From Nannochloropsis oceanica (taxonomy: Eukaryota; Sar; Eustigmatophyceae; Eustigmatales; Monodopsidaceae), in contig CP038130.1 in assembly GCA_004519485.1 (NCBI GenBank), positions 124,001-188,000 on the forward strand: a stretch of DNA of 64,000 nucleotides, in the 5' to 3' direction. Positions 89 to 6,000 of the stretch are shown piece after piece (within the stretch, counting starts at the first letter, position 1; each line of letters starts with the position of its first letter). The translations under genes were made by a program, and so were the position numbers. The notes under the pieces were generated by a model that was given only the letters and a program-made list of their open reading frames with translations, was not told the DNA's origin and did no database searches.

Positions 89-3000
89 CGATCGTCTGCC
101 TGAGGAAAGTCCGAACGACTACAACGACCGCCTAATCCGTGCCGCCTCCTCCTTCTACACCCAGCAGCTGGGGGAGGAGGGAGGGAGGGTGGTGATGGTG
201 TCCTACGACAAGGACAATCTCCGCAAGGCCAAGGCCGAGGGGATCGAGGTATTTTAATGCAGGGTGCCCCCCTCTTCCTCCCTCCCTCCCCTCCCCCCCT
301 CCCTCCCTCCCTCGTTGTCTCCTTAAATTCTTCTTGTGATCTCGTCTATCTCCTCTTAATTTCATCCTTACAATCGCCCCTCCACCTCCCCCCTCCCCCC
401 GCCCTCACTCCCTCCTTCAGGCCATGACGCTAGCCGCGCTTGTCTGCTCCACCCACCCCGAGCTATCAGATCTCTTGGCTGTCCCTTCCGCTGCCGCCGA
501 TGCCTACACCGGAACAAAGGGAGGGAGAGGAGGAGGGAAGGAAGGTGAGTGTGAGATGGGTGTAGTCGAGGCTCCTTCCCTCCCTCCCTCCCTCTCTCCC
601 TCCCTCCCTTTCACCCGTCTATCTCTCACCTTTCGCGCCATCCCTCCCTGACCACTATTGCTCATCTTTCCTCCCTCCCTCCCTCCCCCCCTCCCGTTCT
701 TCTTTCCTCCCTTCCTTGGTTTTTACAGAAATCTTGCCCGCGCATCTGTCGCCGGCTGAGCTCAATAAGGGCATCAAAAGCGGGCGCTTGCTCCAGGTAA
801 GCCCTCCCTCCCTCCCTCCCTCTCTCCTTCCCTTCCTCTCTCCCTCCTTCCTCCTCCAACTGCCCTCACTTCCTCCCTCTTTCCCTCTCTTCCTTCCTCT
901 CCCGACGTCCAGGGCACCCTGCGGGTTGAGCGTCACTGCTGGCACGACGCCTACGTTTCCGTCCGCGGCCTCGGTGATGGGGAGGGAGGGGGGGACGGGC
1001 GGGTGTCGGTGCTGGTGCGTGGCATGCAGAACGTGAACAGGGCATTGGACGGTGATGTGGTGGCCGTTGAGATATTGCCCAAGCAGCACTGGCTCACGGG
1101 GCAGGAGGAGGTAAGGGAGGGAGGGAGAGAGGGAGGGAGGGAGGGAGGGAGGGAGGGAGGGAGGGAGGGAGGGAGGGCAGGAGAATAGCACTGGTGACCC
1201 TTCTTCTTTTCACTCACCCTCACGCTCTGGATGTTTCTCGCGCGCTCACCAGCTGACATTCCAGGAAGAAAAAGAAGCCGCCGAGGCGGCTCAGGAAGGG
1301 AAGGTTCAGGGGGAAGGTGAGGGAGGGGAGAACGACACTCCCTCCAACTACGAAAGCCTTATCCCTTCTCCGGTCGTGCAGCCCCCGGCCTCCTCCTCCT
1401 CCTCCTCCTCCACCGTGAAGCCGACAGGGCGTGTAGTGGGAGTGATTAAGCGGTATGTCTCTCTCGAAGGACATCCCTCCCTCCCTCCCTCCCTTCCTCC
1501 CTCCCTTCCTTCCTCGGTTTGCTGTCTCCCTGACATCAACTTCCCCTCCCTCCCTTCCTTCCTCCCTCCCTCCCTCCCACAGAAATTGGCGTGTCTACTG
1601 CGGCAGCCTGCAAGCCAGTGCCGATAAAGTGGGAGGGGGAGGGGGAGGAAGTACCGTCTCGGCGCTCTTTGTGCCCGTCGATCGTCGTCTGCCCAAGGTG
1701 AGCCTTCCTCTCCCTCCTTCCTTCCCTCCCCTCCCGCCCCTCCCCCCCTCCCCTCTTACAACTCTCACACCTGGCCCGTGTTTCTCGTCCACCGATGGCA
1801 TGATGCTCATCGCTACCACTAACAGCATCCTCATTATCCAAATCATTATCATTCCTCATGATCCTCACCATCATCATTACATTCAAGAATATTCTAATCA
1901 CCATCCCAATCCTAATCCTAATCCTTCGTATCCTCAGGTGCGCCTTCAAACCCGACAACGCGAGGCCCTTCAAGATAAACGCATCCTCGTCGCCGTCGAT
2001 GGTACGTTCTCCCTCCCTCCCTCCCTCCTTCCCCCCCTCCCTCATATTCGATCATCCATCCCTCCCTTCCTCCCTCCCTCCCTCCCCCCCTCCCTCATAT
2101 TCGATCATCCATCCATCCATCCCTCCCTCCCTCCCTCCCTCCCTCCCCTCCCTCCCTCCCTCCCTCCCTCCCTACCTTATTAGCCTGGCCAGCCACCTCT
2201 CGTTTCCCCATCGGCCACTACGTCAAGACGCTCGGCGCAGTCGGCGACAAGGAGGTGGAGACGGAGGTAGGGAGGGAGGGAGGGAGGGAGGGAGGGAAGG
2301 AGGGACGGTCGTAGACTAATGCATCTGATTCGTCCTCGCGCTCTATACACCCGCAGGTTCTACTCCATGAGTACGACATTCCCTGGGAGCCCTTTTCCGA
2401 AAAGGTAGGACCTCCCTCCCTCCCTCCCTCCCTCCCTCCTTCCTTCCTTTCATCCCTTTCTCTCTCTCCTTCCCTCTCTCATGTTCGATCATCCGTCCAT
2501 CCTTTCCTCCCCCCCTCACCCTTCCTTCCCTCCCTTCCTTCCTATGTGATGGCCTGCCTGCCTCCGTCCGACTGGAAGATGACACCCTCCCTCCCTCCCT
2601 CCCTCCCTCCCTTCCTTCCTTCCTATGTGATGGCCTGCCTGCCTCCGTCCGACTGGAAGATGACACCCTCCCTCCCTCCCTCCCTCCCTCCCTCCCTCCC
2701 TCCCTCCCTAGGTGATGGCCTGCCTGCCTCCGTCCGACTGGAAAATGACACCCTCCCTCCCTCCCTCCCTCCCTCCCTCCCTCCCTCCCTCCCTCCCTCC
2801 CTCCCTCCCTAGGTGATGGCGTGCCTGCCTCCGTCCGACTGGAAAATGACGCCGGAGAACACGCAGGGAAGGAAGGATTTGAGGAGCGTACCTGTCATGA
2901 GCATCGACCCACCGGTGAGGGAGGAAGGGAAGGAGGGCGGGAGGGAGGGAAGGAGGCGAGGTGTGTTCACTCCTACATCCCCTCTCTTTGTTCTGACCGA

Positions 3001-6000
3001 TCCGATCCATTCGACCGACCCCAGGGATGCAAGGACATCGACGACGCCCTTCACTGCACGCGCCTTCCCAACGGCAACTTCGGTGCGTACCCCGCCCTCC
3101 CTCCCTCCCTCCTTCCCTCCCTCCTCCTCTCCCACCTCTACCCCTCCGTTCATTCGCTCCCTCCCTCCCTCCCTCCCTCCCTCCCTCTCTCCCTAGCTGT
3201 GGGTGTGCACATCGCGGACGTGTCTTATTTCGTGGCCCCGGGGAGCGCCTTGGACGAGGAGGCGGCCAACCGCTCCACGAGGTGAGGGAGGGAGGGAGGG
3301 ATGGAGGGAGGGATGGAGGGAGGGAGGGAGTGAGGGCGGGAGGGAGGGAGGGCGGGAGGGAGGAAGTCACGTGATAAACAAAAGAGGGGCAGGCTGGAAG
3401 ACTTGATGCCAAGGTCCTCAAGGAGGAAGGCTGCTTCTTGCCTCACCGCCCGCCCTCCCTCCCTCCCTCAGTACCTACCTGGTCCAGCGGCGCCTGGACA
3501 TGCTCCCAAAGCTCTTGACCGAGACCCTTTGCTCCCTGACGAGCACCAGCGACCACTTCGCTTTCAGGTAGGGAGGGAGAGAGGGAGGGAGGGAGGGGGC
3601 CTCCACACTTTCAACTCTTCCCTCTTGGCCATTCTTTTGACCTCAAATCCTCCGCGCTCGAATTGAACTCCCCTTTCCCTCCCTCCCTCCCTCCCTTCCT
3701 CCCTTCTCCCCGCAAGTGTGACCTGGGAATTGACCCCGCAGGCCGACATTGTGGCGGTGGATTTCTGCCGGTCCATCATCCGCTCGGTCGCCGCCCTCTC
3801 GTATCAGGAAGCCCAAAACATCCACGACGACCCCCGACGGAAGGACGCAGTGGCGACGGTAAGGAGGGAGGGCGGGGGAGAGAGAGGGGAGTAAGGTCGG
3901 GGTGAATCCGGCCCGTCTTGATCCTTTTTTTACTGACCTTCCCGCCTCCCTCCCTCCTTCTTTTCCTCCCTCCCTTCCTCCTTCACCAGGGCATCCGGGA
4001 TTTAAACAGTCTTGCCAAACAGCTCCGAAGCAAACGCATGGAGGCAGGCGCCCTCCTCCTCGCTTCCACGGAGGTCAAGTTTGTGCTGGATGCCGAGAGC
4101 GCCGATCCCTTGGATGTCCAGGTGCGTCCTTCCCCTCCTCCCTCCCTTCCTCCCTCCCTTCCTCCCTTTCCCTCCTCTGGTTTTCGCAGAACATTCTGTT
4201 TCTCCTCACTTCCACCTACTCCCTCCCTTCTTCCCTCCCTCCCTCCCGTCCTCCCCCCCTCCCTCTCTCTTTCTCTCCCACAGATGTATCAGCTGAAGGA
4301 GACACACGCCCTAGTCGAAGAATTCATGCTTCTGGCCAACATTACCGTGGGGAAGAAGATACTCCGGCACTACCCTACCCTGAGGTAGCCCTCCCTCTCT
4401 CCTCCCTTCTTTCCCTCCTTTCCCCCCCATCCTTCTCCAACATGTATTATTCATACGTTCCTCGCTTGCGCTCTCTTTCCCGGATACCCACCCTCACTCC
4501 CTCCTCCTCCCTCCCTCCTCCTCCCTCCCTCCTCCTCCCTCTCTCCTCCTCCCTCCCTCCTCCAGTCTCCTGCGTCGTCACCCGTCCCCCTCCCGCGAGC
4601 GTTTCGAGCCGCTCATCGCTGCTGCTGCCTCCCGCGGCTTTACTCTCTGTGTAGACGACAGCAGGGCGCTACAGCAGTCTCTCGATGCCTCCACGGACAA
4701 GGATGACCCTTATATCAACAGAATTGTGCGCATTCTGGCCACCAGGTAAGCCCTCCCTCCCTCCCTCCCTCCCTCCCTCCCTCCCTCCCTCCCTCCTTCC
4801 TTCCTTCCACTGGACCGCTAGTCAAGAGAGAGAGAGAGATTTCCATTCTCGTCACCTTTCCATGCTCACAACCCCTCCCTCCCTCCCTCCCTCCCTCCCT
4901 TCACCAGGTGCATGTTTCCAGCACAGTATTTCTGCTCGGGGGAGTGTCCGCAGGGGGAATGGCACCACTACGGACTCGCTGCCCCTATCTACACGCACTT
5001 CACCAGCCCTATTCGGCGGTATGGAAGAGGGGAAGAGGGAGAGAAGGAGGGAGGGAAGGAAAGGGATCTCAGCATTCATCCCCTCGCGCGTCTATGAGTT
5101 CATCCTACTCAGAATCTCACCTCTCCCTCTCCCTCGCTCAACCCTTCCTCCCTCCTTCCCTCCCTCCCTCCTTCTCTCCCTCCCTCCCTCTCTTCCTTCC
5201 TCCCTCTCTTCCTCCCTTCCTCCTTCAGCTACGCTGACATAGTCGTTCATCGCCTCCTCGCCGCGGCCATTGGAGTCGCCCCCCTCCCTGAGGCCCTCAT
5301 GGACAAGGGCAATCTGCACGATCTTAGCGAGAACATGAACCGACGACACAAGGCAGCGCAGGTAAGGCTGGGTCACGAACGAGGGAGGGAGGGAAGGTGA
5401 GAGGGAAGAAGCGGTTTCTACGTCTTCCGAATTTTGCGTGCGAGCGTGCGATGACAAATCCTGATCCTCTCCCCCTCCCTCCCTCCCTTCTTCTATCCCT
5501 GCCTCTCCCCCTTCCTCAGAACGCGGGGCGGGGGTCCACAGCCTTCCACACTGTCCTCTTCTTCAAAGAGAACCCGGCAGAGGCCGAAGACGCCTACATT
5601 TTGCGCATATTAGAGACGAGGCTCATCGTGTTGGTGCCGCGTTTCGGGATCGAGGTATGGACTGAGGCAGGGAGGGAAGGAATGGAGATGTATACACGAC
5701 ACTATGTGGGTGACATGACCAAGCTCTCTTCTCCACTCCCTTTCTATCTCGCTGCCCTTTCCTTCACGTTTCTCTCTCTCTCTGTACTCAATGTGTGCAA
5801 ATGGTTGATTCCTTGCTGATCCTCTTTTCCTCCCCACTCCCCCACACTTCTTCCTTTTTGTCCTTCTTATCAGGGTTCCATCGACCTTAAACCGCTTGCC
5901 GACCACGGGCTCTTGAATCGAGATGCGGACGGCCACCGCATCACCTGTCCAGGTCTGTGTCATTTTCTCCTTTCTATTCCCTCTTTTTCTCTTCTCTTCC

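Follow-up and report, generated by a model that had tools for sequence, protein, structure and literature searches.

Tandem genomic duplication has been called, in a review (PMC3443670), the sole route of intron gain shown in vivo, and the closest published case that we found to the locus described here is of this kind. In the RNA-dependent RNA polymerase gene of potato, a tandem genomic duplication across an intron-exon boundary placed a cryptic donor site, located in the exonic piece, where it gave rise to a new, RNA-supported intron (Ma, Lan and Niu 2016, PMC4974935). In the related AGGT duplication model, exemplified by ATP2A1 (Hellsten and others 2011, as cited in PMC4974935 and PMC3443670), an exonic segment is duplicated and an intron is created de novo. 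Introners, or transposon-borne introns, are dispersed copies of one element through which several genes of a genome change in intron content (PMC9860276). Here we describe an intron in a DIS3/Rrp44 gene of the alga Nannochloropsis oceanica whose 3' end has very probably grown through successive tandem duplications of a CCCT tract, the acceptor and a 41-nt exon edge. The same duplication structure is found at other genes, at several degrees of divergence.

As described for potato, the duplicated segment in DIS3 reaches from the 3' end of an intron into the exon that follows, with branch region, pyrimidine tract and acceptor copied ready-made, and the copies differ by point changes. Unlike in that report, we found no strong donor here and the intron seems to lengthen; the copies number four in DIS3 or twelve at another locus, and similar structures occur at several genes with CCCT tracts. 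With the AGGT model, as summarized in the sources citing it, the locus shares a local tandem duplication that supplies splice signals, including an AG/GT junction in copies 3 and 4, but an existing intron is extended and the candidate donor, GTGATG, is weak. Loci of the DIS3 type resemble introners, as those are described, in altering the intron content of several genes of one genome; in contrast to them, each copy stems from its own neighboring exon. Dispersed copies in unrelated genes, the mark of an introner, did not appear when the genome was searched with the 102-nt exon, which matched its own four places in DIS3 and no others among those reported (match counts in this search are lower bounds), whereas the marks of tandem duplication are present in DIS3: the copies are adjacent and direct, and the unit carries both tract and acceptor. 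A literature search, which was limited and is no proof of absence, found no report of exon-edge copies in Nannochloropsis introns. The kind of event, tandem genomic duplication, is already known; new here are lengthening rather than gain, the many copies with stacked acceptors, the recurrence at several loci and, probably, the link to CCCT tracts.

The stretch of DNA that we analyzed (the window, 64,000 nt) lies within contig C4 of the N. oceanica genome, which comprises 29.26 Mb in 32 contigs. It contains, at 89-5952, the DIS3/Rrp44 gene, for which a model of 21 visible exons was placed by eye; when spliced, this model yields a single open frame of 800 codons. The predicted protein matches human and yeast RRP44/DIS3 over nearly its full length (E 4e-208 to 3e-178, full-length chains), with residues 6-778 aligning with human RRP44, and the Pfam domains RNB, OB_Dis3, Rrp44_CSD1, Rrp44_S1 and PIN_4 score above cut-off. 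Because the gene begins before the window, its 5' part lying upstream of position 1, the names "intron 9" and "exon 10" given in the initial annotation to the host intron and the exon that follows it are valid as a count of visible parts only. The host intron is the longest of the 20 introns seen in DIS3, and the protein match to RRP44/DIS3 runs across its junction. Rfam and tRNA scans of the window returned no matches, and a scan of viral contigs for relatives returned none. As a separate observation, two copies of the segment TTCGATCATCCRTCCATCC lie in visible intron 7 of DIS3 and one in visible intron 9 (2002-2183 and 2478-2502), with no further genome match reported when up to one mismatch was allowed; going by these copies, sequence seems also to have moved between introns of DIS3.

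Table 1. Features of the DIS3 host intron and the exon that follows it (window coordinates).
Feature	Position	Strand	Basis
DIS3 host intron, ninth visible, GTAGGA...CTAG, 408 nt	2405..2812	+	By-eye exon model, RRP44/DIS3 protein match
Exon-edge copy 1; AT in place of the acceptor AG	2546..2586	+	Sequence comparison, genome search
CCCT/CCTT tract separating copy 1 from copy 2, with CTAT at its end	2587..2626	+	Sequence
Exon-edge copy 2, same sequence as copy 1; AT in place of the acceptor AG	2627..2667	+	Sequence comparison, genome search
CCCT tract closed at 2711 by an intact CTAG, a candidate decoy acceptor	2668..2711	+	Sequence
Exon-edge copy 3; differs from the exon at two sites, both of synonymous type	2712..2752	+	Sequence comparison, genome search
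CCCT tract and acceptor CTAG continuing the DIS3 frame	2753..2812	+	Sequence, frame
True exon (phase 0, 102 nt), whose initial 41 nt (2813..2853, copy 4) gave rise to the copies	2813..2914	+	Exon model, protein match

The initial annotation had reported that about 41 bases from the start of this exon occur four times, three of them within the intron and separated by CCCT repeats, and our comparison confirmed this together with the coordinates (Table 1). The copies are spaced 81, 85 and 101 nt, and the tracts between them measure 40, 44 and 60 nt and are mostly CCCT. A chance origin is excluded, because 32 exact non-repetitive bases of the repeat recur 166 nt further on. Positions 9 and 39 differ from the exon in all three intronic copies, and position 33 does so in copies 1 and 2. 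The proposed division into two classes, copies 1-2 versus copies 3-4, is borne out by the boundary (CTAT in the former, CTAG in the latter) and by position 33 (G in copies 1-2), but not by positions 9 and 39, where copies 1-3 share bases unlike those of the exon. All variable sites fit one ladder, copies 1-2, then copy 3, then the exon, with no repeated change. All three differences fall on third codon positions and are synonymous, for which the chance would be about 0.01-0.02 without constraint; this is expected if the changes arose in the coding exon between duplications. The simplest account, though three sites make a small basis, is that the differences arose in the coding exon and that the copies are snapshots of it. 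The four copies and their two classes are best explained by stepwise duplication, as had likewise been put forward from the start, and other genes show the same structure.

CCCT tracts are hard to assemble, and four copies in a simple-repeat region could in principle have been produced by the assembly itself. However, the DIS3 copies differ in substitutions as well as in tract length, copies at other loci are diverged, and the published assembly was made from about 113-fold PacBio coverage with Illumina polishing (PMC6610115), its mean read length of 4.3 kb being enough to span the host intron. Such an artefact is therefore very improbable, although the identical units of the 12-acceptor array described below speak in its favor to the extent that their number could be wrong.

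AG dinucleotides in the host intron end only at 2408, 2578, 2659, 2711 and 2812, and those at 2711 and 2812 are the only ones directly after a tract. Of these two intact acceptors, 2812 alone keeps the DIS3 frame, from which we infer that the last acceptor is the one used. The acceptor of copy 3 is, as first noted, still present as sequence, and the predicted run into a stop was reproduced: its use would give 34 codons followed by a stop. Retention of the host intron would leave the frame open for 135 residues.

In copies 3 and 4 the tract is followed by AG and then directly by GTGATG. This (CCCT)nAG/GT arrangement is the layout of both the AGGT duplication model and recursive splice sites, and prompted us to consider that the copies create new introns, the junction in copy 3 acting in turn as an acceptor and a donor, and the intron being split or taken out in two steps. 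AG/GT is also present in the copy at a further locus, L032. We scored donors with a matrix built from the 21 DIS3 donors placed by eye, which themselves range from 5.31 to 12.25. GTGATG after the AG of copies 3 and 4 scores 4.89, slightly under the weakest of these donors, and the corresponding score at copies 1-2 is -0.54; moreover, the copies at three other loci (C20, L031 and L045) lack a GT after the boundary. The weak donor argues against recursive splicing or AGGT-type intron gain, and we regard either as rather improbable. A branch-point role of the TGAC found in each copy was considered as well, but the motif is too weakly defined in the 20 introns to judge. Eight strict branch-like motifs were sought in the host intron, and none was found within 294 nt of the true acceptor.

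We looked at 20 arbitrary 10-kb samples, one per contig from 20 contigs (7,500 of 200,000 bases masked, in two of the samples). One of them, L024 from C20, holds 12 acceptors in exact 85-bp units, each consisting of a tract, TGCCTAG and the first 49 nt of the exon, in an intron of a PH-domain gene (L024:1964-2999; C20, about 201,964-202,999). The last acceptor keeps the reading frame; from the first, translation would run into a stop. Provided that the array is correct, no more extreme case was seen, and it may be very young. An intron "caught in the act" of growing, the wording of the initial annotation, is an apt description of this identical array and a less apt one of DIS3, where two copies are already without acceptor.

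Three further loci came from scans for two close tract acceptors and from a looser scan, followed by small fetches (nine loci, those of the loose scan taken from among the matches listed, of 541). At L031, in a gene whose PHD match is below cut-off, the copy lies 71 nt upstream and has one synonymous difference. The copy at L032 lies 92 nt upstream and matches over 35 nt at 89% identity, with amino-acid changes; by eye, a weaker copy is also present in the next intron. L025 (386-640) is a donor-side mirror of these cases, in which the exon end and a GTGAGGG donor occur three times at spacings of 118 and 75 nt, one of the three donors having its GT changed to AT (gene structure by eye). No exon-edge copy was found in the fetched loci L027, L028, L029 and L030. 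Two more were not counted: L026, with a 13-nt intronic repeat only, and L033, with only 13 nt shared at a boundary. Just before its CCCT tract, L033 also has a perfect tandem repeat of 28-29 nt (L033:205-261).

Enrichment over reversed controls varied between these patterns. The loose pattern was not enriched (541 places versus 517), and the first close-acceptor scan showed little enrichment (14 places, 11 of them in the C20 array, versus 9), while the second returned 5 places versus 0. From these five, DIS3 and L040 were examined, with C10:944118, C18:509943 and C22:411726 left out, and L040 was rejected as not significant (score fraction 0.32 in the null). On the donor side, two pattern scans gave 4 and 10 places versus 2 and 3 in the reversed control; inspection of two of these matches, L171 and L172, by eye revealed no clear exon-end copy.

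In addition, we surveyed 137 tract-AG sites that were chosen regardless of copies. Of these, 97 came from the 100 listed (CCCT)6AG matches, which extend to contig C25 (120 in the genome), minus three belonging to DIS3 and L032, and 40 from the first 42 listed (CCCT)5NNNCAG matches (204 in the genome), minus two that overlapped fetched loci. Each exon start was compared with the 311 nt upstream of it, and the same exons paired with other introns provided the null. When the match was anchored at the boundary, L065 scored 16 and L037 and L045 14 each, against a null maximum of 13 in 5,480 comparisons. Without the anchor, L158 reached 34.5, L065 22.5 and L152 19.5 against a null maximum of 16.5 in 1,644, with L045 (15.5) and L037 (14) falling within the null range of this test. 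A recognizable upstream copy of the exon is thus found at 5 of the 137 sites, at offsets of 84-114 nt, and 132 sites are without one; all five are TAG sites (5/97), compared with 0/40 CAG sites. The L158 match starts 22 nt inside, at a TGCAG for which the copy has TGCAA, and this TGCAG may be the true acceptor. At L152, the copied piece is exon-internal. L038, L124 and L140, with weak matches at offsets -113, -114 and -127, were not counted.

The identical test was applied to control sites from the window and the samples, namely YAG preceded by pyrimidines but lacking a tract. With low-complexity starts excluded, 3 of 131 tract sites and 0 of 544 no-tract sites gave a match (p = 0.007); with them included, the figures are 3/137 and 3/620 (p = 0.08), all three control matches being low-complexity repeats. 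These values supersede a comparison of 3/80 with 0/544 (p = 0.002), in which the control had been tested slightly more strictly. Shifting the anchor 15 and 30 nt into the exon gave 2/80 and 0/80 matches at a score of at least 10, and a separate run on the 50 tract sites of the window and samples gave 13 matches, all in DIS3 or the C20 array (two loci). Surveyed and control sites alike are acceptor-like by sequence only, and the reversed patterns are so frequent (31 places versus 120 for the TAG pattern, 100 versus 204 for the CAG pattern) that some of these sites are not splice sites. The copies are probably associated with CCCT tracts, at modest significance. We also observed that CCCT-tract AG sites lie toward contig ends, their median relative distance to the nearer end being 0.106 versus 0.25 expected (based on 34 of 39 listed C1-C10 positions, after removal of near neighbors).

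At least eight other places in the genome resemble the DIS3 case, with copies that for the most part start right at the splice boundary, spacings of 71-118 nt in all counted cases and divergence ranging from identical arrays to copies about 80% alike. This points to a recurring route of intron growth, and the recurrence at varied divergence supports the original proposal that the DIS3 intron grew by duplicating its repeat tract together with the exon edge.

The fate of the acceptors bears on whether the copies have a function. An intact CTAG follows the 44-nt tract before copy 3, its last six bases are those of the true acceptor, and its use would end translation after the short frame given above; such a site might be a working splice switch, with use of 2711 causing an early stop and destruction of the transcript and so tuning the amount of DIS3. 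The C20 gene, whose first acceptor leads to a stop, has likewise kept 12 intact acceptors. On the other hand, the acceptor has been lost in DIS3 copies 1-2 and in the copies at L037, L045 and L065, and probably in that at L158, and loss at several loci suggests decay rather than upkeep. This argument is qualified by the copies at C20, L031 and L032, which, like DIS3 copy 3, still have their acceptors, and loss does not strictly track divergence. Overall, we consider a switch unlikely. Nor do we think that the copies are retained as alternative exons to supply a variant of the protein, a reading that is highly improbable: the differences are indeed synonymous in DIS3 and L031, and the L045 copy encodes a similar peptide (FLLKQISDQ versus FVLKQINDK), but the DIS3 copies run into the CCCT tract, where read-through meets a stop, the copies at L032 and L045 have amino-acid changes, as does that at L065 in each of three frames, and the acceptor is lost in L045 and L065.

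Extension of the intron by stepwise duplication would proceed as follows. A unit comprising part of the intron's CCCT tract, the acceptor and 41 nt from the exon start would have been duplicated in place, and later duplications would have led to four copies, of which the intron absorbs all but the last; a one-copy ancestor of the DIS3 intron is implied. After each duplication the downstream copy would remain attached to the whole of the exon with its donor site, and because it does so, splicing to the last acceptor would leave the protein unchanged and the earlier copies intronic. The last acceptor presumably wins as the one nearest to the exon's own donor site, that is, by exon definition, and the extension would be tolerated since the downstream copy, with its whole exon and donor, is the one that exon definition favors. 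Once intronic, the earlier copies would decay. The loss of AG common to copies 1-2 would most simply predate the further duplication that separated them; in general, acceptor loss could stem from selection against decoys or from plain decay, and the numbers favor neither.

Repeats of the CCCT type are prone to form triplexes or quadruplexes, at which replication may stall and templates may switch. The tract may have provoked the duplications in this way. In DIS3, the microhomology between exon breakpoint and tract amounts to 2 nt (CC), read by eye. Tandem duplication also occurs in this genome without any CCCT tract, as a perfect 83-bp duplication at L020:4707-4872, which counts against this reading.

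How introns change length and how new splice sites appear is, as a rule, deduced from isolated events of the distant past. In the compact genome of N. oceanica the process seems to be visible at multiple loci, diverged to different degrees, so that its rates and fates could be measured. A broader interpretation, which we put forward tentatively and hold to be possible rather than probable, is that splice-site CCCT tracts in Nannochloropsis act as an engine that copies the intron end and the exon edge, adding growth steps of about 70-120 nt, leaving dated snapshots of the exon and generating multi-acceptor states (twelve acceptors in one gene) among which the spliceosome chooses the last. If true, this would provide a natural test of 3' splice site choice. 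The stacked, near-identical acceptors also constitute a natural experiment that sets first-AG scanning against exon definition, and for gene finders they hint at a risk that exon starts are misplaced in Nannochloropsis.
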